Shown: positions 4,844 to 33,726, counted from the first letter of the stretch. The stretch: DNA of 64,000 nt from Pleomorphomonas sp. (GCA_029976075.1 JARKNW010000029.1:1-64000); one strand, 5' to 3'. Notes: generated by a model not told the origin, from the letters alone. Program-made: numbers and translations.

Positions 4844-7330
4844 TCAGATAACGTCCTTCAGCGATGGCAAACGGGCTGCGGGGCCATGATCGCTGTTATC
4901 GTCCGCCAGCGACATCGGTCTTCCGGCCGCAAGGGGGCTCAGCAGGATGGAGACAAAGGCGTAGTTGGCCTTCAGCGGTGGCAACATGACGACGAGCTTG
5001 CCATCGGGCTCAGACAGGTAATGGTCGTCATCGAACCGGACGCCGACGGCATGGAGACGGTCTGCGGCAACACGCTCGACCTCGGCTACCTTGTGACTTT
5101 GCAAAAGCTTGTCGTGCTGTTGCAGCGTTACTCCGCGCAACAAGCCTCTCTGGGCAATCTGGCCGAGGGGGATGGCCACCGCCTCGATATTCTGCTGACG
5201 GGACAGCGGGATATGAAGGCGCAGGTCATTGGCTCCGGTGCGCCGACACGTGATCTTGGCAAGACTGGCTGCCGTCTTGCCCACGAGTGTTATCTCGACC
5301 TGACCACAGGGAATGTCGTCGTGAATCTCACGAGGGAGCAATCCGCATCCATAGAGGAGGTATGAAAATCCGTCGACCGGAGAAACGGCACTGAAGCTGC
5401 CCGCCGGCCACATCGGTGGAGCGGGCATGCCTGCCGCTTCGGAAAAGGTCCAGGCAACCATCCAGTCGGTCGCCTTGGCCTGATCGGCCAGCGGGACGAT
5501 GGCCTTCGTCCCGAGGTTGATGTCGTGGCAGGCATTTCCCAGCAGCAAGAGCTCGTCATCTGTCGGCAATAGAAGCAGGCGGGCCAACAACACCGCCGCC
5601 CAGGCTGCTCTCGTTTCGCCGCGGGCGAACGGATCGAGCCCCGCCGCGGCGAAGGCTGCGACCTGTTCGGCGAAGTGAATGGCGCCGGCCTGGGCTTCGC
5701 GAGCGAGCTTGAGCTGTTCCATGCTGCGAACTTCCTGCTCACGCACCGGGCGGCCGTTTTCATAACTGCGCACACTGCCATCAGGCGCCGAGCAGAGCTG
5801 CTCCAGCACTGCAATATTGGACAACATGGTCAGCTTGGTCTGGGGCGAGACGACGAGATCGTCGATAAATCCCCGGATCGTGTCGCCCTTTTCAACTTCC
5901 AGGCTGTCGTCCTTGGTCAGGAGATAGCGACCATGCAAGCGCATCTTGAGACCTGCGGCCTTCATGGCGCGCCTCAGTCCCTTCTGGACCGAGCCGCTAT
6001 AACCAAGATCGACCAGCACAAGATCGGTGGCCGTCTCAAAACCTGGAATGGTCTTGCGCATATGTTCAAGAAGGCCGGCTCGCATGGTGCGAGCCAGCTT
6101 CCCGACCGTCTCCTTGCCAAGCAGCGCCGGAAGTCTGCCACAAAGCGTGTCACCGTCGGCGATGCCCAATGGCTGGCGGGCAAAGTAGGAACGAAGCGCA
6201 GGGCTGTCGGCTCCAATCATCTCGACAACGGCCGCGTGATCGATCTGATCGATGCCGGGAAGAAGCGGCTTGAATCCGATGGCATCGTCGGCTGCGGCCA
6301 GGGCCGCTGCCCGTCTGTTGATCTCCGCGTAGCCAACAGGTTGCCGTTTGCCTGCCATCCAAATGCCGTACGGCAGGAAACCGTCGCGAGCGAGAAAGGC
6401 CACCGAGACCTGCCGACCTTCTGCTGACAGCTTGTCGATTTCCTCCGAGACGAAGCGATCGAATGCAGACAGGACGGGGCCAAGCACCGTGGCGCCGAGT
6501 GCGAAGGCGTCGGCCTCTGCTTCGAGGCGGTTGGCAACGCAACGTCTCAGCGATCTGAGGCCGCCATCGAGCCGCTGACCGTGGGCAACAGCGGGCGAAA
6601 CAAGAGCGAGAGTTGAACCCTCTCGCTGCAGCAGGCCTGCGAAATAGGTCGATGCTTGCCGGCAATAATGGGTCTCTATTCCGAAGCGCTTGGGGGCTTC
6701 GATATCGGCGCCGGGGTTGTCGCCGACGTGAAGCATCCGTCGCCGGCCCAGCCTCTCGCCCGAGATCACCTTGCGAAACAGGTTTTCGCTCTTGGACGTG
6801 CCGTGATCGCAAGAGGCATAGAGGAAATCCCATGAAAGGCCGGGCGCTGCGGTCTCAAGCAGTTGTCCTAGCCGCTTCCCATTCCAGTAGGTGTCGGAGA
6901 CGAAGCCGGTTCGTATCCCTGCGTCGCGCGCCGACCGATAAAAGGCAAGGATGTCGGGGTTGGCCACGCAGAGAGCCAACTCTGCCTGAAACTCGAACTC
7001 AGCCAACCTTTCCGTGGTGATATCGTCCAGACCGAACAGGTGGCGCGGAAAGCGGTCGTATATTTGTTCGATGGTCACCTCGCCTCCGCCGGTGGCCTTG
7101 AAGGCTGCCTTTCGCGCCTTGGCTTCGGCAAGGCTGCGGTGCTGGGTGAAGCTTTCCACCAGGCCGGGCCGGATTATATCGCAGCCTGCCAGCCGGCAGG
7201 CCATCTCGAATACGCCGGCAGGCGTCGTGCATCGACGCAGCAGCATCGTGTCAAACACGTCGAAGCTGACAATATCGAGCGATGTGTGATCGGTCGTAAC
7301 TGGGGCGATCTTGTCGGTGTCGATGAACAT
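4844..7330 (-). CDS. Large HAD-superfamily protein (COG5610-like)
   Basis: An 828-residue cytoplasmic protein. The start at 7330 is supported by AAGGAG six bases upstream; the track ORF begins 40 codons earlier. The N-terminal domain is HAD-type: the phosphatase motif I SFDVFDTML (Asp24 and Asp27), motif II GFVSDTYW, and motif IV HVGDNPGADIEAP near residue 200. A second region has VAFLARDGFLPYGIW and later LVLVDLGYSGSVQKGL, a pair typical of COG5610 'predicted HAD hydrolases' found in surface-polysaccharide loci. The last 250 residues match nothing I recognise. The substrate is unknown; a role in modifying or regulating glycan synthesis with the convergent glycosyltransferase-like gene is inference only. 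Confidence 0.7.
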   Translation of the reverse strand: MFIDTDKIAPVTTDHTSLDIVSFDVFDTMLLRRCTTPAGVFEMACRLAGCDIIRPGLVESFTQHRSLAEAKARKAAFKATGGGEVTIEQIYDRFPRHLFGLDDITTERLAEFEFQAELALCVANPDILAFYRSARDAGIRTGFVSDTYWNGKRLGQLLETAAPGLSWDFLYASCDHGTSKSENLFRKVISGERLGRRRMLHVGDNPGADIEAPKRFGIETHYCRQASTYFAGLLQREGSTLALVSPAVAHGQRLDGGLRSLRRCVANRLEAEADAFALGATVLGPVLSAFDRFVSEEIDKLSAEGRQVSVAFLARDGFLPYGIWMAGKRQPVGYAEINRRAAALAAADDAIGFKPLLPGIDQIDHAAVVEMIGADSPALRSYFARQPLGIADGDTLCGRLPALLGKETVGKLARTMRAGLLEHMRKTIPGFETATDLVLVDLGYSGSVQKGLRRAMKAAGLKMRLHGRYLLTKDDSLEVEKGDTIRGFIDDLVVSPQTKLTMLSNIAVLEQLCSAPDGSVRSYENGRPVREQEVRSMEQLKLAREAQAGAIHFAEQVAAFAAAGLDPFARGETRAAWAAVLLARLLLLPTDDELLLLGNACHDINLGTKAIVPLADQAKATDWMVAWTFSEAAGMPAPPMWPAGSFSAVSPVDGFSYLLYGCGLLPREIHDDIPCGQVEITLVGKTAASLAKITCRRTGANDLRLHIPLSRQQNIEAVAIPLGQIAQRGLLRGVTLQQHDKLLQSHKVAEVERVAADRLHAVGVRFDDDHYLSEPDGKLVVMLPPLKANYAFVSILLSPLAAGRPMSLADDNSDHGPAARLPSLKDVI

Positions 7331-7496
7331 GTCGGCTCCTTGCCTGTCTCTCAAGTAAAACGGGCGAGGGGACTCATTCAGGCGCCATTTGGAAGTGTCG
7401 ATCAAGAAATCTTTCGCCTCTTGAAGGCTGAATTTTGCCGATCTCTCCAAATTGTATCCGGCAGATACATTCTGTAGGTTAATCGTCTGCTATGAA

Positions 7497-7794: not shown

Positions 7795-7935
7795 CCGCGT
7801 CATGTGGAACTATTTGCCTATACTGCATTTATTCTTATTCCTCGTCGATTTTCTGCGCCTGGTTTGTCGGGTTGCTTCGTTTCAGTGTCGTAGGGAACGT
7901 TCTGGTCGGTTAACGACGGCGTATTGAGGTGTGTG

Positions 7936-8592
7936 ATGATGGTTGCTGCTGCGAGCTCGTTCCGTGTCGAGGCGCCCACTCCCCTCGGTTCCTCCGTGGA
8001 TGGGGAAGGGGTGCCGGTCCGGCGCGCGAGGGATGAGGATGACAAGCTCCTCGAGCAGATTGCCAATGACGATCGGGACGCTTTTGCCAGACTCGTCGAG
8101 AGACATGCCGACCGTGGTTTCGCCCTGGCGCTTCGCATTCTGAAGAATGCCGATGACGCTGACGACGTTGTACAGGACAGCTTCCTGAAACTCTGGACCC
8201 ACCGCAAGCGCATGGAGATCGGACGGGCCAAGTTTTCAACCTGGCTCTATCGCGTCATCACCAACCGCTGCATCGATCTTCGGCGCAAGCCTGTGATGGA
8301 TGATCTGGATGTGGCGCCAGAAGTGGCTGATGGTCGCGAGGACGCACCGACCCAGATGCACCGGGCTTCCATGAACAGCCTGCTCGAGGCGGCTCTTGCG
8401 AAGTTGCCTGACCAGCAGCGTATCGCGGTGATCCTCAGCTACCACGAATCCATGTCGAATGCCGAAATAGCCGAGGTGATGGAGACCACGGTCATGGCCG
8501 TGGAGTCGCTGCTGAAGCGCGGGCGCCAGCATTTGCGCCACCATCTGGCCCAGGCGGAAGATGATATCCGTCAGTCATTTACCCGCGATTAA
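7936..8592 (+). CDS. ECF-type RNA polymerase sigma factor
   Basis: A 218-residue sigma-70 family protein of the extracytoplasmic-function group, which redirects RNA polymerase to a small regulon. Region 2 is at about residues 35-105: DAFARLVERH, the core-binding RILKNADDADDVVQDSFLKLW, and the -10 recognition helix FSTWLYRVITNRCIDLRR. Region 4 follows at about 155-210 with ALAKLPDQQRIAVIL and the helix-turn-helix SNAEIAEVMETTVMAVESLLKRGRQ. A 35-residue N-terminal tail precedes region 2. ATG 7936 follows GAGG by 6 bases; the track's TTG at 7924 is upstream of that site. No anti-sigma gene is adjacent. The next gene is flagellin, which suggests control of late flagellar genes, but this is not proved. 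Confidence 0.93.
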   Translation: MMVAAASSFRVEAPTPLGSSVDGEGVPVRRARDEDDKLLEQIANDDRDAFARLVERHADRGFALALRILKNADDADDVVQDSFLKLWTHRKRMEIGRAKFSTWLYRVITNRCIDLRRKPVMDDLDVAPEVADGREDAPTQMHRASMNSLLEAALAKLPDQQRIAVILSYHESMSNAEIAEVMETTVMAVESLLKRGRQHLRHHLAQAEDDIRQSFTRD

Positions 8593-8635
8593 CCAAAAAA
8601 ATGCGTCGCGGCGAACGATTTTCGCCGGGTTGGTT
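8591..8635 (+). repeat. Nested hairpin downstream of the ECF gene
   Basis: An inner stem CGGCGAA/TTCGCCG (8609-8627, 5-base loop) is nested within an outer AACCAA/TTGGTT pairing (8591-8596 with 8630-8635). It overlaps the sigma-gene stop codon and precedes fliC by about 100 bp. There is no T-tract, so it is more likely an mRNA 3'-end stabiliser or weak terminator than a classic intrinsic terminator. Confidence 0.45.
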
Positions 8636-8738
8636 CGTGCTCGTCCGTTGAAGGGGTGAAGCGAGGGGCGATGACGCCTCCCGCGAACGTCTTCCCGGCA
8701 GACGGGTGACGTTGCTCATCGATAGGGAGAGTACTGAA

Positions 8739-9563
8739 ATGCCCGTCATCGCGACCAACACCGCCGCCAACTCCGCCGTCCGCTACCTCAACCAGAATGC
8801 CGCCTCGCAGTCCTCGTCGCTCTCCAAGCTGGCGTCGGGCTCCCGCATCAGTCAGGCATCCGATGACGCTGCTGGTCTTGCCATCTCGACCCGCCTGCAG
8901 TCGGACGTGGCCACGCTGAACCAGGCGTCGACCAACGCCACCAATGCCATCGCGGTCCTGCAGACGGCTGACGGCGGCGCTTCCAACATCTCCGACATTC
9001 TCCAGCGCATGAAGGTTCTGGCCACCGAGTCGGCTTCTGGCACGGTGACCGATACAGAGCGCGGCTATATCAACGAGGAATTCACGGCGCTCCGGGGGCA
9101 GATCGATACGATCGCCAGCGGCACCCGCTTCAACTCGCAGAGCCTGCTGACCAGCAACAACATGTTCTCCACCGGCGTTAGCGTGATGATCGGCTCTTCG
9201 AGCTCCGATACCATCAAGATCACGCTCAAGGGTCTCTCCACGACCGACCTCGGTGTCGGTAGTCTCACGGTGACATCTCAGACCAACGCCAATAGCGCGC
9301 TGACCACTCTTGATACCGCCATCAATACCGTCTCGACGGCGCGTGCCAAGATCGGTGCCCAGGAGAGCCAGTTCCAGTTCAGCTCGGAGTCAATCTCGAC
9401 GCAGGTGGAAAATCTCGAGTCCGCCAACTCGGCGATCTCCGACGTCGACGTGGCATCCGAAGAAGCCAAGCTCGCCTCCTCTCAGGTAATGGTGCAGGCC
9501 GCCGTGGCGGCGGCGTCCTCGGCCAACAGTCTCACACAAAACCTGCTGAAGTTGATGCAGTAA
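8739..9563 (+). CDS. fliC: Flagellin
   Basis: A 274-residue flagellar filament subunit, exported by the flagellar type III system. The N-terminal D0/D1 region has the conserved NTAANSAVRYLNQN and SSLSKLASGSRISQASDDAAGLAIS segments; the C-terminal D1/D0 has RAKIGAQESQFQFSSESISTQVENLESANSAISDVDVASE and ends SLTQNLLKLMQ. The variable middle is short, typical of compact alphaproteobacterial flagellins. The start is ATG 8739 with GGGAGAG upstream; the track's earlier TTG adds a non-flagellin leader. It is followed by a strong inter-cistronic hairpin and fliD, so it should be more abundant in transcript than the genes after it. The product could be glycosylated in the Ser/Thr-rich centre, which cannot be judged here. 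Confidence 0.95.
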   Translation: MPVIATNTAANSAVRYLNQNAASQSSSLSKLASGSRISQASDDAAGLAISTRLQSDVATLNQASTNATNAIAVLQTADGGASNISDILQRMKVLATESASGTVTDTERGYINEEFTALRGQIDTIASGTRFNSQSLLTSNNMFSTGVSVMIGSSSSDTIKITLKGLSTTDLGVGSLTVTSQTNANSALTTLDTAINTVSTARAKIGAQESQFQFSSESISTQVENLESANSAISDVDVASEEAKLASSQVMVQAAVAAASSANSLTQNLLKLMQ

Positions 9564-9572
9564 CCGCCCGAT

Positions 9573-9610
9573 GCGCTGACGGGAAGCTGAAGCAGGCTTC
9601 CCGTCAGCGC
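9573..9610 (+). repeat. Perfect 15-bp stem-loop between fliC and fliD
   Basis: GCGCTGACGGGAAGC and GCTTCCCGTCAGCGC are perfect reverse complements around an 8-base loop (tgaagcag). The structure begins 10 bases after the fliC stop and ends about 35 bases before the fliD start. There is no T-tract. A role as a partial terminator or a 3'-protecting hairpin that raises fliC message over fliD is inferred. Confidence 0.75.
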
Positions 9611-9644
9611 CGCCGACCATGGGTGACGCGACGGGAGCAAGGAT

Positions 9645-11348
9645 ATGACGACAACATCGAGCACCACCTCAACATCCTCGACGTCCTCCTCCACTTCCGC
9701 GACCAGCTATGCCTCTTCCGATGTCAGCTCCATCGACTGGAGTGGGCTCATCGATGAACTCTACCAAGCAAAACTTGCCGCGACCGATACTTACTCGACA
9801 AAGATAACGACCAATACCTCCAAGATTTCCGCCTACAATGACGCATCGGACCTGCTTACGACGCTGAAGACAACGTCGAATGCGCTCAGGGCAGCCACCG
9901 ATTCCTCCGGCAGTGATTCCGATGTTTTCGATGAACGCGAGGCCTACCTGACAGGGGTAGGGGGAGTCACCGCGAGCAATGTTCTTACGGTGACTGCCGA
10001 ATCCGGCGCCGATACGGGCACTCACTCCATTACGGTCAGCCAGCTTGCCACGACGCAAAAAGTGGCGAGCAGTGCCTATGCGTCGTCATCGTCCGCACTG
10101 TCGCTTTCGGGAAGCTTCACCATCGGAACCGAAGGGGGGAGCAGCGTATCCATCGACGTGACGTCGGACATGTCGCTGTCGGACATAGCCAGCGCCATCA
10201 ATAACCAGAGCAGCACCAGCGGTGTGAAGGCAACCGTGCTGAAAGTGTCGGATTCGTCTTCCGAACTCATCCTGACGACAGCGGATACTGGAGAAACAAT
10301 CTCCGTCGGGGATACCGATGGTGTTCTCAAGAGCATGGGCGTCATCGACGACAACGGTGATTTCGCCGACGAGCTGCAAGCGTCTCAGCAAGCTAAGTTC
10401 ACGATCGATGGTGTCAGCGTCACGCGCTCATCCAACGAAGTCGATGACGCAATCGATGGTTTGACCTTCTACCTCACAGGGACGACAGACGACGGCGAGT
10501 CCGTCACGGTCGACGTGGAGCAGAACCTTTCCGATATCAAAAGCGCGGTGAGTTCCTTCGTTGATGCCTACAATGCCTATCGGGAATGGGCGTTGACACA
10601 ACAGGAAACCTCATCGAGCGGCGGCGCATCCAGCGACTCTGTTCTATTCGGCGACAGTACGATTCGCAGTATCAATCAGCAGGTCGCTACCGCCCTGACG
10701 TTCTCTCTCGATGATGTGTCCATGTCGTCGATAGGGCTCAGCTTCGATGAGAACAACAAGCTTGTTTTGGACGAAAGTACGCTGAACAGCGTGCTGAACA
10801 GCGATCCAAGTACGATCCAGAAGTTGTTTTCCTATACGTTCGAGAGTTCTTCGAGCGACCTTGGAATCCTCTATCGCGGCACGAGTGCCCCGTCGACCTT
10901 CAAGCTTGATGTCACCGTCGACGACGATGGCAACGTCACCGGTGCGACAGTCAACGGCGAGAGCGGTTTGTTCACTGTTACCAGCACGGGGCACGGCCTC
11001 AAGGGCGTGGCCGGAACGGCCTATGAAGGCTACACCTTCGTTTATAACGGCACCACCAGCCAGTCGATCACGGTCACTCAATCCTCCGGCATAGCTGAAC
11101 AACTTTATAATGTCACCGATGCGGCCGTTAATACAAGTGATGGCTCCATCACGACCGTAATATCCAGCCTCGAAGACAAGAATAGCGATTATCAGGATCA
11201 GATTGATACGATAACAGACCGGGCGGAAAGCTATAAAGAAAACCTGACCGCGCGCTATGCCAAGATTCAGGCCAAGATCAGCACCGCTCAATCGACGCTC
11301 AGCTACTTAACGGCTTTGCTCGATTCCCAGAACAGTAGCAGTTCCTAA
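9645..11348 (+). CDS. fliD: Flagellar filament-cap protein (hook-associated protein 2)
   Basis: A 567-residue FliD that caps the growing filament and helps flagellin fold at the tip. After a 25-residue Ser/Thr-rich lead it has the FliD N-terminal signature SSIDWSGLIDELYQAKLAATDTYSTK, then HSITVSQLATTQKVASSAY, characteristic of the family, and a DIKSAVSSFVDAYNAYREWA helix in the centre. The C-terminal coiled coil (EDKNSDYQDQIDTITDRAESYKENLTARYAKIQAKI) ends in a short tail, as usual. ATG 9645 has GGAG/AAGGAT upstream. It lies between fliC and fliS, the order seen in many bacteria. The sequence is very rich in Ser, Thr and Asp and poor in Cys. Confidence 0.93.
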   Translation: MTTTSSTTSTSSTSSSTSATSYASSDVSSIDWSGLIDELYQAKLAATDTYSTKITTNTSKISAYNDASDLLTTLKTTSNALRAATDSSGSDSDVFDEREAYLTGVGGVTASNVLTVTAESGADTGTHSITVSQLATTQKVASSAYASSSSALSLSGSFTIGTEGGSSVSIDVTSDMSLSDIASAINNQSSTSGVKATVLKVSDSSSELILTTADTGETISVGDTDGVLKSMGVIDDNGDFADELQASQQAKFTIDGVSVTRSSNEVDDAIDGLTFYLTGTTDDGESVTVDVEQNLSDIKSAVSSFVDAYNAYREWALTQQETSSSGGASSDSVLFGDSTIRSINQQVATALTFSLDDVSMSSIGLSFDENNKLVLDESTLNSVLNSDPSTIQKLFSYTFESSSSDLGILYRGTSAPSTFKLDVTVDDDGNVTGATVNGESGLFTVTSTGHGLKGVAGTAYEGYTFVYNGTTSQSITVTQSSGIAEQLYNVTDAAVNTSDGSITTVISSLEDKNSDYQDQIDTITDRAESYKENLTARYAKIQAKISTAQSTLSYLTALLDSQNSSSS

Positions 11349-11370
11349 GCAATCGAGGAGGGATCCGCCC

Positions 11371-11967
11371 ATGAATTCTCACATGGGATTTGCCGCAGCG
11401 GCCTATCGCCAGGCTGCCGCATCGGTGCACCCAACCGTCGCGGTCGTCAAACTCTACGACGCGACGCTGCTGGCCATTCTGCAGGCGATCCGGGCACGCG
11501 AACAGAAGCAGATCGAGGAATGCTTCAGCAAGGTCATGCGAGCCGCTACCATTTTGCGCGGACTGGACCAGGCGCTCGACTATGACAAGGGCGGGGCGGT
11601 GGCCGAACAACTGCATCGTGTGTATCGGAGCTACATCCTGTCGCTGCATGTGAGCTTTGGAAAGCCGGACGTGCTGAGGCGCTATCGCAAGCTCTATGAT
11701 AGTCTGATCGGCTTGCGCGATGCCTGGGCGAAGATTGCCGGCATGGATGCCCACCGGGAGGCTTCGGCGGAGAGTTCGGCAGCGCCCGCCGCTCAATCGC
11801 TTGCGGCCGCGCGGGTCGTGCCTCCGCCGGCCAACAACTTCGACAGCAATCTGTTCCTTGGCCTCATGGCGGAACAAACGCCCGATGCTCACGCGGCACC
11901 GGCTCGGATAATGCCACCTTTGAGAGATGCCTACGGAAGCGCTCCGCAAAAGCCGATCGCTGGCTGA
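11371..11967 (+). CDS. fliS: Flagellar export chaperone FliS with C-terminal extension
   Basis: A 198-residue protein. The first ~130 residues match FliS, the cytoplasmic chaperone that holds flagellin monomers: AAYRQAAASVHPTVAVVKLYDATLLAILQAI, the KVMRAATILRGLDQALDYDKGGAVAEQLHRVYRSYI block and the final LRDAWAKI. Typical FliS ends there; here about 65 further residues, rich in Ala and Pro, form a probably disordered tail with no recognised domain. ATG 11371 follows GAGGAGGG. It is the last gene of the fliC-fliD-fliS operon, which ends at a strong terminator 30 bp downstream. Confidence 0.88.
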   Translation: MNSHMGFAAAAYRQAAASVHPTVAVVKLYDATLLAILQAIRAREQKQIEECFSKVMRAATILRGLDQALDYDKGGAVAEQLHRVYRSYILSLHVSFGKPDVLRRYRKLYDSLIGLRDAWAKIAGMDAHREASAESSAAPAAQSLAAARVVPPPANNFDSNLFLGLMAEQTPDAHAAPARIMPPLRDAYGSAPQKPIAG

Positions 11968-11997
11968 GGAAGGTGGCCTCGACGCTGCCATCAGAAT

Positions 11998-12031
11998 GCC
12001 CCGGGACCTGTGTCTCGGGGCCGTTTTTTTT
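11998..12031 (+). terminator. Intrinsic terminator of fliC-fliD-fliS
   Basis: GCCCCGGGAC pairs with GTCTCGGGGC (one G:T/A-type mismatch) around a 4-base loop, followed by CG and eight T residues. This is the best Rho-independent terminator in the window and separates the filament genes from the next gene. Confidence 0.92.
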
Positions 12032-12143
12032 ATCGCCGAGATCGTTAGAAATAGACACTTTATTGTCTTTTTTTATCTATTGAATGTGTTTTCCCCGCGG
12101 GGGATACTTTCGGAAACAGAAGTCACCGAGCGGATTGCCCAGA

Positions 12144-12386
12144 ATGGACGAAGCCCAATTTCAGGATCTCGTCGATCGCCAAGGCGAAGATTTGGCGCGC
12201 TGGCCGGAAGCCGTTCGGGTCGAGGCTGAGCAATTGCTCGCCGTGTCGGAGGCTGCCCGCCGCATTCTGGGCGACGCAATCGCCCTCAGGGCGGCCTTTG
12301 CATCGGGCCGACCGATCCGTGCTCCCCGAGATCTGGCGGCTCGCATCCTGGCGCTTGCCAACGACGACGACGGCGCCGCCGCATAA
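12144..12386 (+). CDS. Small conserved alphaproteobacterial protein of unknown function
   Basis: An 80-residue soluble protein starting at ATG 12144; the track's earlier TTG adds 20 unlikely residues. The sequence has the pattern FQDLVDRQGEDLARWPEAVRVEAEQLL followed by SEAARRILGDAIALRAAF, which resembles small 'xRWPxxxRxxAExLLAxSxxAR' proteins that I recall from many alphaproteobacteria, often near ECF sigma factors. It has no membrane segment or metal motif. It stands alone between the fliS terminator and the flgD promoter. A role as partner of the ECF factor 3.5 kb upstream is possible but unsupported. The Shine-Dalgarno is weak. Confidence 0.7.
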   Translation: MDEAQFQDLVDRQGEDLARWPEAVRVEAEQLLAVSEAARRILGDAIALRAAFASGRPIRAPRDLAARILALANDDDGAAA

Positions 12387-12714
12387 ACCAAATCTCTCGA
12401 TGTCAGTTGCAATATGCGACGCTTGCTTGGTCGGGCGACGTTGTCGCTTGTCGCCTTGATCAAGGTACAGCCGGATGAAGGCGCTGTTTTCGCGCGCCTT
12501 CCCGCCGTGGCCCTAAATTCAGTGCTGCGAGCGGATCTTTGTGCGCCCTGAAATATTAACAGTCATTAACAAATAGAAATCTGACTTCTCGTTAAGTTAT
12601 CGCGCCTGATTTCCCTCCGTCGCCCGTTTAAATATCGAAGCCAATCAAGACGGCAGTTCAAATTCTTTCAATCTGGTCCTTGGAAACAAGAACCGGGGGC
12701 GCGTGAGGTTTATC
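12387..12714 (+). promoter_or_regulatory. 328-bp promoter region of the hook operon
   Basis: No gene is seen here. A hairpin GAAGGCGC/GCGCCTTC with a 9-base loop lies at 12477-12501 and may end the small-protein transcript. The stretch 12545-12660 is AT-richer (attaacagtcattaacaaa) and presumably holds the promoter for flgD-flgE and the genes after them. I could not assign a sigma-28, sigma-54 or ECF promoter to it. Confidence 0.45.
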
Positions 12715-12999
12715 ATGACCACAACGACTTCCGTTTCGTCGGCGTCTACTGCGGCGTCGACAAGCACTTCGTCGTCTTCATCGTCGTCGTCTTCTATCGA
12801 CACGTCTCAGTTCCTCCAACTGCTTGTCCAGGAGATCCAGAACCAGAACCCGCTCAACCCGACGGACACGTCGGACTTCATGAACCAGATGATGTCCTAC
12901 GCGAGCTACTCGCAGCTCAGCGAGATGAACTCGACGCTGCTGTCGCTCCAGGAGTCGGTCAACACGATCTCCTCCTCGCTCACCTCCACATCGGCCTGA
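12715..12999 (+). CDS. flgD: Truncated-type flagellar hook-assembly scaffold FlgD
   Basis: A 94-residue protein containing only the conserved N-terminal module of FlgD: after a Ser/Thr-rich lead comes DTSQFLQLLVQEIQNQNPLNPTDTSDFMNQMMSYASYSQLSEMN, which is the export/hook-capping signature. The C-terminal beta domain of about 100-130 residues found in full-length FlgD is absent, and the frame closes naturally 11 bp before flgE, with no broken remainder in the gap. ATG 12715 is chosen over GTG 12703 because GTGAGG is then a ribosome site at 7 bases. FlgD temporarily caps the growing hook. Confidence 0.88.
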   Translation: MTTTTSVSSASTAASTSTSSSSSSSSSIDTSQFLQLLVQEIQNQNPLNPTDTSDFMNQMMSYASYSQLSEMNSTLLSLQESVNTISSSLTSTSA

Positions 13000-13010
13000 G
13001 GAGAACCGCC

Positions 13011-14267
13011 ATGTCTCTGACCGGCGCGATGAATGCCGCTGTTTCGGCCATGAAGGCTCAATCGACAGCGATGTCCATTATTTCCAACAACCTCGCCAAC
13101 GTCTCGACGACCGGCTACAAAGCGAGCTCCACAAGTTTTTCCTCGTTGTTGACGTCAGGTTCGTCCGCCAGTTCAAGCGGTGGCGTAACGGCAGCCAAGT
13201 CGCAAAACATTCTTGCGAGAGGTACGCTGGTCTCATCTTCGGTCAGCACGAATATAGCTGTCGATGGCGAAGGGTTCTTCGCGGTGACGACTGGTGACGG
13301 CAGTCAGGTCTACTATACGCGGAGCGGCGGTTTTACGGTCGATGACGATACTGGCTATCTGACCAACAATGGCTATTCGTTGTTGGGCTGGCCGACTGAT
13401 GCCGACGGCAATGTCGTTGGCGGTACCACGGGAACCAATCTGGAGCGGATCGCTACCGACACGCTGACCGGTTATGCCGCTGCGACTACCAACGTGACGC
13501 TCAAAGGCAGCCTGCCAGCGGATGCGACCAGCAGTTATACGAGCGAGCTCCCCCTCTACGACAGTCTGGGCACGTCTTACACGCTCGAAGTAGAGTGGAC
13601 CAAGAGCACGACGGACGACAATACATGGACCATGTCGTTCGGCGATCTCAAGACGAGCAAAGGCACGACGGTTTCCGGAGCGACTGTCTCGGGTTCCACG
13701 ACCATCAAGTTCAACTCGGATGGCACTCTGGCGAGCCCGTCGACTTCAACACTGGCAATTTCCGGGCTGACCGACGGTGCCAGCACCATGTCGGTGACAC
13801 TCAACTTGGGCACGGTCGGCGCATCTGACGGGCTGTCGCAGTATACGCCCGACGATAGCAGCACCAGCACGACGGTGGATATTTCCTGCACCGGCAACGG
13901 CTGCGCCTACGGCACGATGTCCGGCGTCACCATCGACGAAGACGGCACCGTCTACGCCGACTACAGCAACGGCAAGTCAATATCGATCTACAAGATTCCG
14001 CTGGCCACTTTTTCCAATGCTAATGGACTGACTGAAATGAGCAATTCGGTCTACTCGGCTTCCAGCACGACGTCGGGAGCTACCTACCATTTTGCCGACT
14101 CCGACGGCGTCGGCTCGATCAAGAGTTCCGAACTCGAAGAGTCGACTACCGATACCAATACCGAGTTCTCAAGCATGATCGCTGCGCAGCAGGCCTATTC
14201 GTCGGCATCGCAGGTCATTTCCACGGCCAAGGACATGTTCGAGTCCCTTCTGTCGGCGGTGCGTTGA
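13011..14267 (+). CDS. flgE: Flagellar hook protein FlgE
   Basis: A 418-residue hook subunit. The N-terminus has the flagellar rod/hook signature SLTGAMNAAVSAMKAQSTAMSIISNNLANVSTTGYK; a FlgE-type GEGFFAVTTGDGSQVYYTRSGGFTVDDDTGYL block follows near residue 85. The C-terminus ends with the conserved EFSSMIAAQQAYSSASQVISTAKDMFESLLSAVR, forming D0 with the N-terminus. The central domain is Ser/Thr-rich. ATG 13011 has GAGG upstream. It is co-transcribed with flgD (11-bp gap) and the orphan gene that starts one base after its stop. Confidence 0.95.
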   Translation: MSLTGAMNAAVSAMKAQSTAMSIISNNLANVSTTGYKASSTSFSSLLTSGSSASSSGGVTAAKSQNILARGTLVSSSVSTNIAVDGEGFFAVTTGDGSQVYYTRSGGFTVDDDTGYLTNNGYSLLGWPTDADGNVVGGTTGTNLERIATDTLTGYAAATTNVTLKGSLPADATSSYTSELPLYDSLGTSYTLEVEWTKSTTDDNTWTMSFGDLKTSKGTTVSGATVSGSTTIKFNSDGTLASPSTSTLAISGLTDGASTMSVTLNLGTVGASDGLSQYTPDDSSTSTTVDISCTGNGCAYGTMSGVTIDEDGTVYADYSNGKSISIYKIPLATFSNANGLTEMSNSVYSASSTTSGATYHFADSDGVGSIKSSELEESTTDTNTEFSSMIAAQQAYSSASQVISTAKDMFESLLSAVR

Positions 14268-14268: not shown

Positions 14269-14601
14269 ATGAAGAGGCGAACGGAAAGAGACGAAATCGA
14301 CGACGCCATCGAACTGCTGACACGGCGCCTCGAACGTATCCAGCGTGAAATTCAGCAGCAGAAGGAGGACTGCGATCCACGCCTCCTTGGCCTTTTCAAA
14401 GGCGAAGTGTCGGACGTCATTGAGGATCTGGAGCGCTATCGCGCCGAGACGGCGGCGGCAATTGCCAGCGCCAACTCCGGTTTCGCAGCGAGCCGCACCT
14501 ACCTCTCCGTCGGCAAGCTGGCGACATCGGTCGACACTGCGGAAATCCTTTCATTTGACAAGAACAGGAACAAGAACCATGCGCGTCGAAGCAATCACTG
14601 A
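14269..14601 (+). CDS. Small coiled-coil protein of unknown function in the flagellar operon
   Basis: A 110-residue soluble protein, not recognised. The first 40 residues (RDEIDDAIELLTRRLERIQREIQQQKED) should form a charged amphipathic helix or coiled coil; the remainder includes a short ERYRAETAAAIASANSGF helix and a basic tail. Its ATG comes one base after the flgE stop, and its end overlaps the following flgN-like gene by 23 bases in another frame, so it is translated within the operon. By position it may be an export chaperone or assembly factor; no sequence evidence fixes this. Confidence 0.72.
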   Translation: MKRRTERDEIDDAIELLTRRLERIQREIQQQKEDCDPRLLGLFKGEVSDVIEDLERYRAETAAAIASANSGFAASRTYLSVGKLATSVDTAEILSFDKNRNKNHARRSNH

Positions 14602-15034
14602 GCGCCGGCCGCACGCCAATCCGGCCATTGCCGATCTCGATGCGCTCATCGATGAGCTGATTGCGGTCATCAACGATGAGAACGCCCTATTGGCAAGCGG
14701 CATGCCGGCGTCTCTCGCGGCCACGACCGGTTGCAAAAGCAACCTTGCCTCCAGTATCGAAGCTTCTCTGAAGGCGATCGGCGCAGCAGGGCCGATCACC
14801 GATGAGGAACGGGCCTACCTCGATCAGCGCGTCGGGCTCGTCCAGCAACTGGCACAGGAGAACCTGTCGCGGTTGGCGGGCGCCATCGGGGCATCGCGTC
14901 GGCGGATCGCCGCAGTCGTGGCCGCTGTGCGTGACGAAAGTCTTTCAGCCGCTCCGGCCTATGGGCGAACCGGCTCACGCTCAGCCGGAGGTTCGAAGCC
15001 TGCCTCTTCCCTCCTTCCCGATCGCCTCGCCTGA
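14579..15034 (+). CDS. FlgN-like flagellar export chaperone (probable)
   Basis: A 151-residue helical protein just upstream of flgK, the usual place of FlgN, the cytoplasmic chaperone for FlgK and FlgL. The segment DLDALIDELIAVINDENALLASG is a good match to the first FlgN helix, where 'EnaaL' is conserved, and a second helical block (YLDQRVGLVQQLAQENLSRLAGAI) follows. The C-terminal 30 residues are Ser/Gly-rich and probably disordered. The start at 14579 has AGGAA upstream and overlaps the previous gene by 23 bases; the long track ORF from 14345 is mostly out-of-gene sequence. The assignment rests on motif and context, so moderate confidence. Confidence 0.68.
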   Translation: MRVEAITERRPHANPAIADLDALIDELIAVINDENALLASGMPASLAATTGCKSNLASSIEASLKAIGAAGPITDEERAYLDQRVGLVQQLAQENLSRLAGAIGASRRRIAAVVAAVRDESLSAAPAYGRTGSRSAGGSKPASSLLPDRLA

Positions 15035-15069
15035 GGTTTGTTCGGTCACGCTTGACGAGGAGATGGCTC

Positions 15070-16773
15070 ATGTCGGTGTCGGTCGCCAGTTCCATCGCGC
15101 TTTCGGCCCTCAGGGCGGCGCAGGTCGGCATCAGCGTCACTTCGGCCAACATCGCCAATGCCGACGTCGATGGCTACACGCTGAAGACCGCCAATCAGGT
15201 GTCTACCGTGTCCGGCTCAACTGGGTCGGGGACGGCAATCGCTTCCGTCACCGGCGGCGTCGACAAGTATGTGTTCGCTTCGCTGCTTTCTGCCAATGCC
15301 GATCTTGGGGCAGCCTCTGTCACGGCAACCTACACCGATCGGCTTCAGGCTCTGATGGGATCGACGACCGGAAGCGATGATGGCGGCACATCGATCACCA
15401 CCCAGATGGCTGCGCTCGAGACGGCCGTGACGCAGCTGGCATCGACGCCAGACGACAACTCGACACAGAGTACCCTTGTCTCGGCGGCCGATGCGCTAGC
15501 CAGCCAGTTGCAGGACATTTCTTCCTCCATCTCGACGCTTAAGACCAACGCCAGTCAGCAGATTTCCGATGATGTCGACACCGTCAACCAGGCGCTCGAC
15601 AAGATCGACAAGCTCAATGACCAGATCGTTGCGACGAAGGCAAAGGGACAGTCGACCGCTGACCTCGAGGACGAACGCAGTTCGGCGATCAAGACGATTT
15701 CCAGTTTGCTCGATATCTCCACGACAACGGCATCGACAGGTGCGGTTTCCATCAAGACCACCGGCGGCACCACGCTTCTGTCGACCCGGGTGCGCGAGCT
15801 TTCTGTCGACGCCAGCGGATCGATCCTGGTTGACGGCAGCAACGACATCACCAGCACGATCACCAACGGCGAGATCGGCGGTTTGCTGACCTTGCGTGAC
15901 GATACGCTGCCTGCGGCGCAATCCGAGCTGGACACCCTGGCGGGGAAGCTGATCTCCACCGTCAACTCGGCCGTTGCCGATGGATCGGCGGTACCGGCTC
16001 CCGACAGCCTCACCGGTACAACAGACGTTTCCAGCCTCTCGAGCTTCTCGGCATCCGGAACGGTGCGTGTCGCCCTCGTCGACAAAGACGGTAAACTGAC
16101 GTCTTGCTCGGACCTGGATCTCTCGAGCTACAGCTCGGTCAGCGATCTGGTGTCGGCTCTCGACGCCATAGACGGGGTGAGCGCTTCGGTTGGCTCCGAT
16201 GGCAAGCTGACCCTCAGTTCCGATACCTCTGGTTCCGGCATAGCGATCGGGGCGCAGGACAGTTCGATCAACGGCCAGAGCTTCTCGAGTTTCTTTGGGC
16301 TGAACGCCATTTTTACGGGTAGTTCTGCCTCCAACATCAAGGTGTCCTCCAGCCTTCTCAAGGATTCGGGCACACTTGCGGTCGGAACACTATCGACCAG
16401 CGTCACCACGTCCGGGAAGGCCGTTCTGACGACAGGCTCCACCACGGTCGCGAATGCTTTGAACTCGGCGTTGACGACATCCTACAGCTACAGCGCCGTT
16501 GGTAGCATCGGAACCATGAGCGGTACCCTCACCGATTATTCCTCGCGCGTCGTGTCCGCCTTCGCGAGCCGGGCTTCGACGGCGGAGTCAACCCAGACGT
16601 CTGCAGAGACGTTGCAGTCGTCCCTGTCGAGCACCATCGCCTCGCAATCGGGCGTCAATGTCGATGAGGAAACGTCCAAGCTCGAGGATTACCAGACGCT
16701 TTACTCTGCGGCGGCGCAGGTGATTCAGATCACCAAGGAAATGTTCCAGTCACTGCTTTCGGCCGTGAGCTGA
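15070..16773 (+). CDS. flgK: Flagellar hook-associated protein 1 FlgK
   Basis: A 567-residue hook-filament junction protein. The N-terminus has SVASSIALSALRAAQVGISVTSANIANADVDGYT, the D0 signature shared with hook proteins. Central features are DKYVFASLLSANADLGAASVTATYTDRLQALMG and the FlgK-like VDTVNQALDKIDKLNDQIVATKAKGQSTADLEDERSSAI helix. The C-terminus ends SGVNVDEETSKLEDYQTLYSAAAQVIQITKEMFQSLLSAV, where 'GVNxDEE' is diagnostic of FlgK. ATG 15070 follows GAGGAG by 7 bases. It is followed by flgL after 39 bp. Confidence 0.95.
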   Translation: MSVSVASSIALSALRAAQVGISVTSANIANADVDGYTLKTANQVSTVSGSTGSGTAIASVTGGVDKYVFASLLSANADLGAASVTATYTDRLQALMGSTTGSDDGGTSITTQMAALETAVTQLASTPDDNSTQSTLVSAADALASQLQDISSSISTLKTNASQQISDDVDTVNQALDKIDKLNDQIVATKAKGQSTADLEDERSSAIKTISSLLDISTTTASTGAVSIKTTGGTTLLSTRVRELSVDASGSILVDGSNDITSTITNGEIGGLLTLRDDTLPAAQSELDTLAGKLISTVNSAVADGSAVPAPDSLTGTTDVSSLSSFSASGTVRVALVDKDGKLTSCSDLDLSSYSSVSDLVSALDAIDGVSASVGSDGKLTLSSDTSGSGIAIGAQDSSINGQSFSSFFGLNAIFTGSSASNIKVSSSLLKDSGTLAVGTLSTSVTTSGKAVLTTGSTTVANALNSALTTSYSYSAVGSIGTMSGTLTDYSSRVVSAFASRASTAESTQTSAETLQSSLSSTIASQSGVNVDEETSKLEDYQTLYSAAAQVIQITKEMFQSLLSAVS

Positions 16774-16812: not shown

Positions 16813-17703
16813 ATGGCCATGCGCGTCGCCACCTTCGCATCGTCTCAGAGCCTGCTTCAGGCGGCCATGAGGATTCAGGTCAAGCAGGCGGAAGCTACGG
16901 AACAACAGGCTTCGGGCCAGGTCTCCGGCGATTATGGTGGGCTCGGGACAAAGGCGGGGAGCGTTGTCTCGCTTCAGGCGTCCGTGACGCGCTCCAAGGC
17001 CTATGCAGAGGCGGGCAACACGGCCAGCAATCGCGTTCAGACCATGTACAACGCTGTTGGTTCGATGCTCGATGACCTCAGCAGCCTTAAGGCGACTCTG
17101 GCCTCGTCGACCATCAGCTCGGATACGCTGCAGGCCACGGCCAAGTCGACGCTGGAGAGCGTGGTGTCGTTGATGAACACCGAGCTCGATGGTCGCTATC
17201 TTTTTGCCGGCAGCGCCGTCGATACCAAGCCGGTCGACATCGACAGCATCGAGGGATCGACGGCTACAACCCAGGATGAGCTGGACTATTATCAAGGGGA
17301 TAGCCAGACGACGTCCGTGCGTGTTTCGTCCAGCCGCGTCCTTTCCTATGGCGTGACGGCAAACGATGACAGTTTCAGGCAGGCGCTCTGGGCCATATCG
17401 ACGATCGCCAATGGTTCGACCGACAGTTCCTCGGTGACGAACGCCATCAATCTTTTGACGAGCTCGATCAGCGGCATGGCGACAGTCCAGACCAAGCTGT
17501 CGCTCGACGCGTCTGATCTCAAGTCCGCCGTGAGCTCGCAGGAGGATTATCAGACCGATACGTCGGATGTGATCTCCAACCTCAGCGAAGTGGACATCAC
17601 CACGGTGGCAGCCAATATGTCCAACTACGAGGCGCAGTTACAGGCGGCTTATGCCGCCATCGGAAAGATCGCCAAACTCTCGTTGTCGAGCTACTTGTCG
17701 TGA
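16813..17703 (+). CDS. flgL: Flagellar hook-associated protein 3 FlgL
   Basis: A 296-residue junction protein related to flagellin. It starts MAMRVATFASSQSLLQAAMRIQVKQAEATEQQASGQ, includes TKAGSVVSLQASVTRSKAYAEAGNTASNRVQTMYNAVGSM and STLESVVSLMNTELDGRYLFAG, the last being typical of FlgL, and ends with SEVDITTVAANMSNYEAQLQAAYAAIGKIAKLSLSSYL. AGGAG lies 7 bases before ATG 16813. It is the last flagellar gene in the window; no clear terminator follows in the 180 bp before the exporter gene. Confidence 0.93.
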   Translation: MAMRVATFASSQSLLQAAMRIQVKQAEATEQQASGQVSGDYGGLGTKAGSVVSLQASVTRSKAYAEAGNTASNRVQTMYNAVGSMLDDLSSLKATLASSTISSDTLQATAKSTLESVVSLMNTELDGRYLFAGSAVDTKPVDIDSIEGSTATTQDELDYYQGDSQTTSVRVSSSRVLSYGVTANDDSFRQALWAISTIANGSTDSSSVTNAINLLTSSISGMATVQTKLSLDASDLKSAVSSQEDYQTDTSDVISNLSEVDITTVAANMSNYEAQLQAAYAAIGKIAKLSLSSYLS

Positions 17704-22160: not shown

Positions 22161-24800
22161 TCACACCGTACGGGCGGGACAGATGTCGTCGACGATCTCG
22201 CTGTAAATCTGGATCGGAGCCGGCCTGCCAATGATGTAGCCCTGAATTTCCGTACAGTGTTCTTGCGCCAGGAACCTCAGTTGGTCCTCGGTTTCGACCC
22301 CCTCCGCGATGACGGGTATGCCCAGGCCCCTGCAGAGGCCAATGACCGCTCGAATGATGGTTGCCGCCTGTTCGGTCCGACCGATCGCCTGGATGAAGCT
22401 CTTGTCGATCTTGATCTTGTCGAAGGGAAAGGCCTGCAAGTAGGAAAGCGAGGAATAGCCGGTGCCGAAGTCGTCCATGGCGATACGGACTCCCATCGCC
22501 TTGATCCGCCGCAGCATGCCGACGATATGCGCGAAGTCGCCGAGCAGGATGCCCTCCGTGATTTCCAGTTCGAGCCGGGACGGTTGAAGACCCGTATCGA
22601 TGAGCGTCTGCTGGATGACGCGCGGGAGTTCACCGTGCTGGAACTGAATAGGTGACAGGTTGACGGCCACGGTGAGCGGATGAGCCCAGCTCGCAGCTGT
22701 GCGGCAGGCTTCAGCGAGTATCCAGGCAGACATGTCGAGAATGAGGTTGGACTCTTCTGCCAGCGGGATGAACTTGTCGGGTGGAATGGGCCCCCGTGTC
22801 GGATGTGTCCAGCGCATCAAGGCTTCGAAGCCGAAGACACGACCGTCAATCTCGGCCTGCGGCTGGAAATGCAGCGAGAGTTCTCCATTGCGCAGTGCGT
22901 GCCCCAGATCGGCCTGCAATGCCCAACGCTCGCGGATAAGCAGATCCGTCTTGGATTCATAAACGCGGACGTGGCCACGCGCTTCTGATTTGACGTGATA
23001 GAGGGCGGCGCCGGCGTTGGCGAGCAGCAAGGAGCCATTGTCGCCGTCAACCGGATAGGTTGCGACGCCGATGCTAATTCCGACCCGGATGACCTTGTCG
23101 TCGATCACGATGTCTTCGGAAAAGACGCTCTGGGCCAATGCAGCCAGTCTTCGCGCCGCGTTTGGCTGGTCGGGATCGTTGGAGATGACGACAAACTCGT
23201 CACCGCCGGGGCGGAAGACCAACCCCTCGCCGGAAATGTCCAAGAGCCGTCTCGCGGCTTCCTTCAGCACTCGATCGGCAACGGCGTGACCATAGAGATC
23301 GTTCAGTGTCTTGAAGCGGTCAATGTCGATACTGAGAAGCCCGAAGCGCGCTTGTGTTGCCGCCGCGGCGAAAACGCCGTCGGCAAGACGGACCATCATC
23401 GCTTCTCGATTGGGCAGACCTGTCAATGCGTCATGTTGAGATAGAAAGGCGATCTGCTCCTCGGCGCGCCGCTTCTCGGTCACGTCCATCGTCACGCCAA
23501 CAATGAAGCGCGGCGAACCATCGGAGTTGCGAACCACCATGCGCGTCACAGTGACAAGCCGAGTGCCGCTGGGCGTCGCGATTGTCTCGGATGTGCACAA
23601 CTGCTGGGCTCGTCCGGCGAGAAGCTCGTCCTCGTCAATTTCGGCAACCGTTGCAACGCGCTCGCCAAAGACTTGCCGTGCGTTCTTGCCGATAAAGACA
23701 TCCCGTGGGCAACCGAAGAGTTGCTCGCCTGCCTGGTTGAGCAGGATGTATTTCCGGCTGATCGGATCCTTTGCGAATATTGCCGCAGGCACACTCTCGA
23801 CGATCGTGTCGAGAAACTCTCGCGTCGCTTCGAGTTCCGATGCGGCGCGTCGTCGCTCGGTAACATCCACGGCTGTGACCAGAATGGCTTGCCGGCCGTT
23901 CTGGATCTGGGGCCGAATAAACACCTCGACATCGATCTCCGAGCCGTCGCCCTTGAGGTGCCTGAACAACCGGTTGCCGTTTTGCGTATCGACCCGATCG
24001 CGGATCGACTGCAGCGTCTCGGCGCGATCGCGTTCCGGGCGGATGTCCAGAACGCTCATGTTCATGAACTGGTGAAGGGTGTATCCGTAATGCGCTATGG
24101 CGGCGCGGTTGACTGCGAGAAAGCGAAGCGTTTCAAAATCAAAGAGATACATCGGAACTGGGCTGTCTTCGAACAGGAGCCGGGAGGCCGCCTCGCGTCG
24201 CTTGAACTCGCTTATGTCGATCCGAATACCCACCCATCCGCCTTCCGCAAGTCTTCTCTCCTCCACCCGGATCCATCGCCCGTCGGCGCGTTGCTGTTCT
24301 TCGGCGCTGTTAGGAAGCGCGTGTCGCTCAAGGCGCGCCCGAAGCCATTCCTCTTCCCGGCCGAGAGCGTCGATATAGGCCCCCCGATCCAAGCCGCGAC
24401 GCAACATCGCCTCAAAGGCACACCCCTCGAACAGAAACCCATCAAGCTCAGGATAGAGCTCCAGATAGCGACGGTTCCAAAGTGTGATCCTGTCATTCGC
24501 ATCGAATACAGCGATGCCTTCCGAGGCCGCATCGAGTGCCAGATCCAGGCGCGCCAGCCTGTCGTCTTGTTCGGCTCGCGGCATGGAGACTGTTCCGGAT
24601 GTCTCCATCCGTGCCGCTTCCAAACCCTCATAAGTCGATCTGACGGTATCCAGAAGGGCCGGTATGTCGATTTCGCCGTCAGGACGCCTTGCCGCAGCAA
24701 GCTGACTGGCCAGTAGATCCTCAGTTGTACCGCTTTCTTCCGGAGAAGCGCTTCCGGCATTCAAGCCCCGTCGGGCTTCACTCTCCCGTTCAAGTGTCAA
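22161..24800 (-). CDS. PAS-PAS-PAS-GGDEF-EAL cyclic-di-GMP signalling protein
   Basis: An ~879-residue cytoplasmic protein without membrane segments. Three PAS-like sensory domains (about 80-205, 210-325 and 335-455) precede a diguanylate cyclase domain with LTGLPNRE, SIDIDRFKTLND and an intact RPGGDEFVVI, then a phosphodiesterase domain with intact EALMRW, NLSPIQF, ELEITEG, DDFGTGYSSLSYL, KIDKSF and AEGVET motifs. Both active sites appear complete, so synthesis and hydrolysis of c-di-GMP are possible. The inhibitory RxxD I-site upstream of GGDEF is missing. The start is uncertain: TTG 24800 has GAGGGAG at 9 bases, while the track TTG at 24824 lacks a ribosome site. The gene stands alone; a link to motility through the nearby flagellar genes is plausible. 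Confidence 0.93.
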   Translation of the reverse strand: MTLERESEARRGLNAGSASPEESGTTEDLLASQLAAARRPDGEIDIPALLDTVRSTYEGLEAARMETSGTVSMPRAEQDDRLARLDLALDAASEGIAVFDANDRITLWNRRYLELYPELDGFLFEGCAFEAMLRRGLDRGAYIDALGREEEWLRARLERHALPNSAEEQQRADGRWIRVEERRLAEGGWVGIRIDISEFKRREAASRLLFEDSPVPMYLFDFETLRFLAVNRAAIAHYGYTLHQFMNMSVLDIRPERDRAETLQSIRDRVDTQNGNRLFRHLKGDGSEIDVEVFIRPQIQNGRQAILVTAVDVTERRRAASELEATREFLDTIVESVPAAIFAKDPISRKYILLNQAGEQLFGCPRDVFIGKNARQVFGERVATVAEIDEDELLAGRAQQLCTSETIATPSGTRLVTVTRMVVRNSDGSPRFIVGVTMDVTEKRRAEEQIAFLSQHDALTGLPNREAMMVRLADGVFAAAATQARFGLLSIDIDRFKTLNDLYGHAVADRVLKEAARRLLDISGEGLVFRPGGDEFVVISNDPDQPNAARRLAALAQSVFSEDIVIDDKVIRVGISIGVATYPVDGDNGSLLLANAGAALYHVKSEARGHVRVYESKTDLLIRERWALQADLGHALRNGELSLHFQPQAEIDGRVFGFEALMRWTHPTRGPIPPDKFIPLAEESNLILDMSAWILAEACRTAASWAHPLTVAVNLSPIQFQHGELPRVIQQTLIDTGLQPSRLELEITEGILLGDFAHIVGMLRRIKAMGVRIAMDDFGTGYSSLSYLQAFPFDKIKIDKSFIQAIGRTEQAATIIRAVIGLCRGLGIPVIAEGVETEDQLRFLAQEHCTEIQGYIIGRPAPIQIYSEIVDDICPARTV

Positions 24801-24824
24801 GATCGAATGCTCCCTCAGGAACAA

Positions 24825-29350: not shown

Positions 29351-29932
29351 TCAAGAGGAGGCTTTGTCGTTTGCCATTGTGAGGCGCACCACGAGAGCTG
29401 CGTCCGTCCCGTCGATCTCGAGACCCACCTTCTGGTCCCGGTCGCATTCGATCAACTCGCCTGATTCCGCGCGGATTGTCGCATCTTCGACGTAGACGGT
29501 GACACCGCCGCGGACCGCCAGGACATAGGTCAGCGAGGCGGGCGGCATCACGCCGCTTCGAGCAAGCTCCACCTCCGCAACTATCTTTCCTCGCACCGTC
29601 ATGACGTTGAAATCGCGAGACGGACCATGGACGACCGTCGCGCTCGTCGACCAGTCTCCGGAGAAGGCCAGAGCCTCGAATGGTCGCAGTGAAACTGGCG
29701 GGCGTGCTCCGCCGAAATCCAGATCGAAGCCCTCGCCATCGATCAGCGTGATGATCCGATCGATGCCAGGCAGAGGAGAGAATGGGCCGGGCTCGACGAC
29801 ATCGGCGATCGACAGGCGCCAGAGCAGTCTTCCGGCCGCGTCATCCTGCCGGACGAGCTCCAGCGTGGTGCCGCGGCCGTTTTTCCACGGCAAACGCCGA
29901 AAGTCTGCAGCCGTGAGAAGCCGGAGGCTCAT
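29351..29932 (-). CDS. hutD: HutD/Ves family cupin protein
   Basis: A 193-residue HutD family protein, a bicupin-fold protein of uncertain biochemical role encoded with histidine-utilisation genes, thought in pseudomonads to modulate hut expression. Recognisable features are the opening [58 protein letters not shown], and [22 protein letters not shown]. The ATG at 29932 overlaps the hutU stop by 4 bases (ATGA), so it is the second gene of a hutU-hutD operon. The track start lies 14 codons upstream inside hutU. Confidence 0.9.
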
Positions 29933-31602: not shown

Positions 31603-31615
31603 GATGAACCCCTAT

Positions 31616-31634
31616 CTTGTCTATACAAGACAAG
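31616..31634. promoter_or_regulatory. Putative HutC operator before hutU
   Basis: CTTGTCTATACAAG is a dyad with 5-bp arms CTTGT/ACAAG and a 4-base centre; overlapping it, CTTGTC...GACAAG extends to 31634. It closely matches the palindrome before hutF (CTTGTATGTACAAG, two differences) and the known GntR/HutC operator style. It lies 14 bases upstream of the hutU start, so repressor binding should block transcription initiation or early elongation. Confidence 0.75.
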
Positions 31635-31655
31635 AAGCACCGCACGCGGCGTCTG

Positions 31656-33617: not shown

Positions 33618-33691
33618 TTACTAGGCACTCCCCCAAAATGGTCAGTGGGTGATCGAATTCGCCTTGCGGCCTAGGAATTTTCCTCTACAGT

Positions 33692-33707: not shown

Positions 33708-33726
33708 GTGAGGTTTTGCGGACAAG

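Follow-up and report, generated by a model that had tools for sequence, protein, structure and literature searches.

Results

An ECF sigma gene and a small gene flank the filament operon

The window analyzed here is a 64,000-nucleotide stretch (GCA_029976075.1, JARKNW010000029.1:1-64000; contig C169) from the draft assembly, 5.36 Mb in size, of a Pleomorphomonas to which P. carboxyditropha and P. oryzae are the closest named relatives. It contains a gene for an extracytoplasmic function (ECF) sigma factor (7936-8592, plus strand; 218 amino acids), followed on the same strand by the filament operon fliC-fliD-fliS and by a gene for an 80-amino acid protein (12144-12386), and these two flanking genes are the subject of this report. 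The operon encodes a short flagellin of 274 amino acids (fliC, 8739-9563; Pfam Flagellin_N, 1.7e-33, and Flagellin_C, 5.7e-16), the filament cap (fliD, 9645-11348; FliD_C, 1.6e-41, and FliD_N, 7.2e-15), and the flagellin chaperone (fliS, 11371-11967; FliS, 5.3e-16), all of which exceed the Pfam cut-offs. An intrinsic terminator with a GC-rich 10-pair stem and a T8 tail (11998-12031, plus strand) lies between fliS and the small gene. The preliminary description of this sequence had the layout right: the ECF gene is directly before the operon, the 80-residue protein is encoded after its terminator, and the ECF gene has no anti-sigma gene next to it. It is almost certain that the ECF gene is orthologous to rpoE6, and the small gene to asf6, of Azospirillum brasilense.

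The ECF protein is an RpoE6 orthologue

We took ATG 7936 as the start of the ECF gene; a second in-frame ATG at 7939 would give a protein of 217 amino acids. The protein contains sigma regions 2 and 4 (Pfam Sigma70_r2, 2.9e-19; Sigma70_r4_2, 1e-15). Its best NCBIfam model is NF009190/PRK12538, at 297.9 bits (cut-off 303), and PRK05602 scored 201.7 bits (cut-off 208). The FliA/WhiG model scored 31.4 bits, far under its cut-off of 189.6. RpoE6 of A. brasilense, as described in PMC12826043 (December 2025), is an ECF factor that drives the small flagellin gene fliC2, the promoter activity of which is lost without RpoE6; it is 44% identical to the ECF protein of the window (tblastn). In a tree of 68 sigma factors, the 40 from flagellar loci, both Azospirillum sequences among them, were separated from the rest by a branch supported at 99/98.

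Gene order gave the same assignment. We surveyed 398 Hyphomicrobiales genomes for the sigma factor, which returned 44 hits of at least 260 bits, then a gap down to 196, and examined 26 high-scoring and 13 low-scoring loci. The preliminary description had named lack of synteny in relatives as grounds for abandoning its proposal, and the linkage held: fliC lies next to and downstream of the sigma gene in all 26 high-scoring loci. The genes fliD, fliS, flgD, flgE, flgK, and flgL are present in all 25 that are complete, the other (L106) being cut by a contig end. None of the 13 low-scoring sister loci has a flagellar gene matching those of the cluster. Within the genus, FliD and the ECF sigma factor are found in the same 12 of 14 genomes. 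One of the two genomes without them, G011, carries the flgD-to-flgL half at the start of a contig, and its lack of the other half may be an assembly gap; the other, G006, seems to lack the hook-filament set. Second copies of fliD occur in G012 (L167, G012:C1:2233722) and at G002:C32:18771, and no other gene of the cluster was detected near that of G012.

The 80-residue protein is related to Asf6

The small protein matches no family in Pfam or NCBIfam, but its open reading frame is conserved between species, and it is therefore a real gene. It is 43.5% identical (tblastn, E = 2e-5) to the Azospirillum protein encoded directly behind rpoE6, Asf6, which binds RpoE6 in two-hybrid assays and the deletion of which raises fliC2 transcription, according to PMC12826043. 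A profile grown from the 80-residue protein showed that 24 of the 25 complete flagellar loci encode a homologue behind fliS, and a tryptophan-proline pair (W20-P21) is invariant among 44 sequences. The same profile found this domain, referred to here as the RWP domain, directly 3′ of the sigma gene in all 13 sister loci, where the proteins are longer and mostly have a predicted membrane helix. In the flagellar loci the protein is usually soluble and 73-110 amino acids long, with the membrane helix kept in Devosia, Rhodoplanes, L104, and L105. The small protein thus appears from its sequence to be no orphan, as it had been called, but a short relative of the anti-sigma factors encoded beside sister sigma genes.

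The predicted structure is in keeping with this relationship. Class I anti-sigma domains consist of three N-terminal helices, a linker, and a fourth helix (PMC7406223), and the AlphaFold model of the 80-residue protein has helices at 3-13, 22-34, and 36-53, a linker, and a helix at 64-78 (pLDDT 84.7, pTM 0.55), which, as modeled, is this architecture. When the protein was searched against PDB sequences, the top match was RsiW, a weak one (E = 0.058). It is very probably the brake, or anti-sigma factor, of the ECF sigma factor encoded in the same cluster, and its suggested role as a partner of that factor is supported by an Asf6 homologue being kept with the same sigma clade.

Several ECF systems besides this one make use of the RWP domain family. 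At locus L062 (3576-4019) of Azospirillum lipoferum p4, an ECF gene, a gene for an RWP-domain protein, and a gene for a periplasmic heavy metal sensor lie in a row, the same layout as the RpoE8 operon described in PMC12826043. Matches to the small protein from Streptomyces look unrelated; the one examined has no annotated ECF gene next to it.

Predicted RpoE6-type promoters precede the sigma, fliC, and flgD genes

Aligned regions upstream of fliC and of the sigma gene gave the consensus CGCC[TG]G-N16/17-CGTTnA. In loci of other genera, the motif is found upstream of the sigma gene in 25 of 26 cases, of fliC in 23 of 26, and of flgD in 22 of the 23 where flgD is co-oriented, against about 0.02 chance matches per region as estimated from base composition. 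We scored the window with a promoter profile trained on other families and set the noise level at the best score of 30 Markov windows, 19.7. The highest-ranking site precedes the flgD-to-flgL block (12603-12630, plus strand; CGCCTG-N16-CGTTTA; score 28.7), followed, at 23.0 each, by those preceding the ECF gene (7856-7884, plus strand; CGCCTG-N16-CGTTTCA) and a divergently transcribed gene (7357-7384, minus strand; CGCCTG-N16-CGTTTT), so that all three exceed the noise level. The predicted promoter of fliC-fliD-fliS (8623-8651, plus strand; CGCCGG-N17-CGTTGA) was placed by its aligned position and scores 14.3, which alone is within noise. At the divergent gene, the -35 and -10 elements are kept, with a varying spacer, in L013, L014, and L015, making four Pleomorphomonas-type loci in all, and this gene is a probable further target of the ECF factor.

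A strict form of the pattern has four sites in the source genome, three of them at this locus; the reversed control has two. Across the genus, matches outside this locus occur near the reversed-control rate. No match to any cluster protein was found around the one other strict site of the source genome (contig C97), and sampled stretches of the contigs carrying its other flagellar systems hold no site scoring as high. The distribution points to a small local regulon.

The motif was found upstream of the small gene in none of 15 loci. A promoter of this kind before the ECF gene implies that the sigma factor would be autoregulated, and its inhibitor gene would have no matching autoregulation; such an arrangement would favor a switch-like response. 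We had considered that the terminator cuts the anti-sigma gene off from transcription of fliC-fliD-fliS, and this is now reduced to a possibility, as a comparable site upstream of the small gene is found in only a few relatives and the terminator is not conserved in most. The terminator not being general, the small gene may be read through from fliC in many species.

Remaining genes of the cluster and of the window

Beyond the small gene, on the plus strand, flgD (12715-12999; Pfam FlgD, 5.7e-16) encodes the N-terminal domain only, 94 amino acids, as compared with 236 amino acids in the FlgD of A. lipoferum. The hook protein gene flgE (13011-14267; 418 amino acids) was identified by synteny and by 41% identity to A. 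lipoferum FlgE. The next gene (14269-14601) encodes a small protein conserved in the genus that has no Pfam or NCBIfam family match and is, by its position, the counterpart of hp2 in the Azospirillum cluster of PMC12826043. It is followed by a gene (14579-15034) for a protein with no Pfam match, a probable FlgN-type chaperone by virtue of its position, at which flgN is found in related clusters (PMC12826043). The hook-filament junction genes flgK (15052-16773; FlgK_D1, 1.1e-40) and flgL (16813-17703) complete the set, the latter assigned from synteny, a Flagellin_C match of 1.1e-4 and 22.9 bits (cut-off 23), and a weak Flagellin_N match.

The divergent gene (4844-7330, minus strand) encodes a protein of 828 amino acids whose N-terminal domain is of the HAD type (NCBIfam TIGR02252, 1.2e-7, under the cut-off), its start being taken as ATG 7330 rather than TTG 7450. 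L098 and L101-L105 have a counterpart in this position. That the divergent gene acts in flagellin modification would be a guess. Elsewhere in the window, a gene a few genes away from the flagellar cluster (22161-24824, minus strand) encodes a GGDEF-EAL protein with several PAS domains, with no evidence linking the two, and the region 29929-39854 has the look of a histidine-use cluster, with genes for urocanase, a GntR/UTRA regulator, and an aromatic amino acid lyase as well as transporter genes.

Other flagellar systems of the genome

The preliminary description had seen neither sigma-28 nor FlaF/FlbT-type control. This is correct for the window, and FliA exceeds its cut-off in none of the 14 genus genomes; it does not extend to FlbT, which is present in all 14 and in two copies in the source genome. 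Those copies lie on contigs C53 and C68 beside other flagellar systems, and FlbT is not encoded in the hook-filament cluster of the window. The C53 and C68 systems each have their own flgE, flgK, and flgL, the products of which are 22-37% identical to those of the cluster. FlhA is found once or twice per genus genome, with two additional contig-end fragments in the source draft, and never in the hook-filament cluster; a single FlhA is found in genomes G003 and G007, both of which have the sigma gene. The cluster seems to form a third hook-filament set that lacks a basal body and is presumably built on one borrowed from another flagellar system.

Discussion

A proposed flagellum-dedicated sigma factor and its probable anti-sigma factor

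We propose, with good confidence overall, that the ECF factor is an RpoE6 orthologue dedicated to the flagellum and that the 80-residue protein is its Asf6-type anti-sigma factor. In this proposal the small protein is an Asf6 homologue reduced to the soluble domain that binds the sigma factor, and, by analogy with Azospirillum, the sigma factor would be idle while held by it. Once released, the sigma factor would transcribe its own gene, fliC-fliD-fliS, the flgD-to-flgL block, and the divergent 828-amino acid gene from promoters of the form CGCCTG-N16/17-CGTTnA. The products would make up a full alternative set of hook, junction, filament, and cap, and this set would sit on the basal body of another flagellar system. 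Orthology, gene linkage, conservation of the promoters, and the predicted fold come from the sequences analyzed here; binding, inhibition, and use of the promoters are carried over by homology from the Azospirillum experiments, and the borrowed basal body is inferred. Control of the filament genes by the ECF factor, as the preliminary description had suggested, thus finds support in the conserved promoter and in the Azospirillum precedent.

How the sigma factor might be released is a separate question. The small protein could be a checkpoint of the FlgM type, a soluble anti-sigma factor exported through the finished hook-basal body to free the ECF factor; this is a sub-case of our proposal that differs in the release step. 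Its size (73-110 amino acids, the FlgM range) and its solubility in most flagellar loci would suit such a role, the sigma factor also governs late genes, and a partial parallel to FlgM is drawn in PMC12826043. However, the orthologues of Devosia, Rhodoplanes, and L159-L161 carry a membrane helix, which makes export unlikely, and flgD and flgE also have an ECF promoter, so that the sigma factor has to be active while its own hook is still unfinished. We consider export unlikely as the release step.

Several findings weigh against our proposal. Locus L099 (genome G321) has a complete cluster with no small protein detectable behind fliS and no ECF-type promoter found upstream of the sigma gene; the regulator may possibly have been lost or replaced there. 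A Foldseek search with the model of the 80-residue protein gave no significant match, RslA and RseA appearing only at an E of 8.7 (TMt 0.56 and 0.46). The fliC site, taken by itself, does not rise above noise; the strict pattern is local here, whereas Azospirillum RpoE6 affects other genes too; and the source genome is a draft assembly with an estimated contamination of 7.9%.

Some of these points could be read to mean that the small protein is another cytoplasmic helper, such as a chaperone or an export adaptor, that merely resides in the cluster, the ECF factor having no anti-sigma factor. The fold search, the lack of a curated family match, and L099 would fit such a helper, as would the location of the small gene beyond the fliS terminator and without a sigma promoter. 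However, the protein is 43.5% identical to one that binds RpoE6, the same domain is encoded directly behind the sigma gene at all 13 non-flagellar sister loci, and where the flgD block is inverted (L083 and L095), the small gene stays with sigma-fliC-fliD-fliS, next to fliS. A helper is, in our judgment, quite improbable.

ECF factors often serve stress responses. The factor could be a general stress regulator with filament genes incidental in its regulon, and A. brasilense RpoE6 also affects glycerol and fructose genes (PMC12826043). Against this, three of only four strict sites in 5.36 Mb lie at this locus (two sites in the reversed control), no site of comparable score was found on the sampled contigs of other flagellar systems, and the sigma gene and the hook-filament set travel together across families. 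This role is thus very doubtful, and a stress cue, which the preliminary description had raised, gains no support and meets no contrary evidence: nothing shows the signal, and the strict pattern points to a small local regulon. That the filament genes answer to FlbT/FlaF or a CtrA-type regulator, the ECF gene being a mere neighbor, is most improbable even though FlbT is encoded twice in the genome, as the FlbT genes accompany other flagellar systems, the regions upstream of fliC and flgD carry the ECF motif across families, and the Azospirillum fliC2 promoter is inactive without RpoE6.

Origin of the gene order

In Azospirillum and at L158-L161, all outside the order, the genes run fliC-fliD-(fliS)-ECF-RWP, with sigma and anti-sigma genes adjacent, and the RWP proteins of L159-L161 carry a membrane helix. 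At L157 and throughout Hyphomicrobiales, the sigma gene precedes fliC and the RWP gene follows fliS. As read from these orders, the sigma gene most likely relocated from the end of the cluster to its front; no anti-sigma gene would adjoin the ECF gene because fliC-fliD-fliS now lies between them. More tentatively, it is conceivable, though unlikely, that in Hyphomicrobiales the ECF/anti-ECF pair replaces FliA/FlgM for a complete and swappable hook-filament set without a basal body, and that the distance between the inhibitor gene and the autoregulated sigma gene makes for an all-or-none switch between two filament types on one basal body.

Comparison with known systems

FlaF/FlbT control resembles the present case in being a form of flagellin control in alphaproteobacteria, with FlbT encoded in the source genome, but there FlbT goes with the C53 and C68 systems. 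FliA-FlgM is similar in pairing a sigma factor with a small soluble inhibitor dedicated to hook-filament genes; it differs in that FliA belongs to another sigma family, that the genus is without FliA, and that no FlgM match was found. ECF26 sigma factors with COG5662 anti-sigma factors, such as RpoE1/RpoE4 of Sinorhizobium meliloti (PMC3511301), resemble the sister loci, in which the sigma gene is followed by a gene for an RWP-domain protein usually with a membrane helix; the likeness is one of layout, and these systems are not flagellar, whereas the anti-sigma factor here has no membrane helix.

The closest counterpart is RpoE6-Asf6. The Azospirillum cluster, as given in PMC12826043, runs flgD, flgE, hp2, flgK, flgL, fliC2, fliD, fliS, rpoE6, asf6, with a mapped fliC2 promoter, CGCCAG-16-CGTGAG, and the Pleomorphomonas locus has an RpoE6-orthologous sigma factor, an Asf6 homologue, the hook-filament genes, and a promoter of the fliC2 type before fliC. 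The two differ in that the Azospirillum sigma and anti-sigma genes are the last two of the fliC2 operon, 4 bp apart (PMC12826043), whereas in Pleomorphomonas the sigma gene comes first, with its own promoter, and fliC-fliD-fliS and a terminator separate it from the anti-sigma gene. We did not take adjacency as defining, since rpoE6-first clusters in Bradyrhizobium, Rhodopseudomonas, and Magnetospirillum are counted as orthologous in PMC12826043, where the genes behind fliS are listed as 'hp' and the main text identifies no Asf6 homologue in such clusters. The locus is a clear new example of the recently described RpoE6-Asf6 system. It puts a name to the anti-sigma factor missing from a layout in which that account lists only 'hp', and it allows flagellin control by an ECF pair to be tested directly in many Hyphomicrobiales, offering for comparison a promoter sequence, a likely set of regulated genes, and a probable ancestral order of the cluster.

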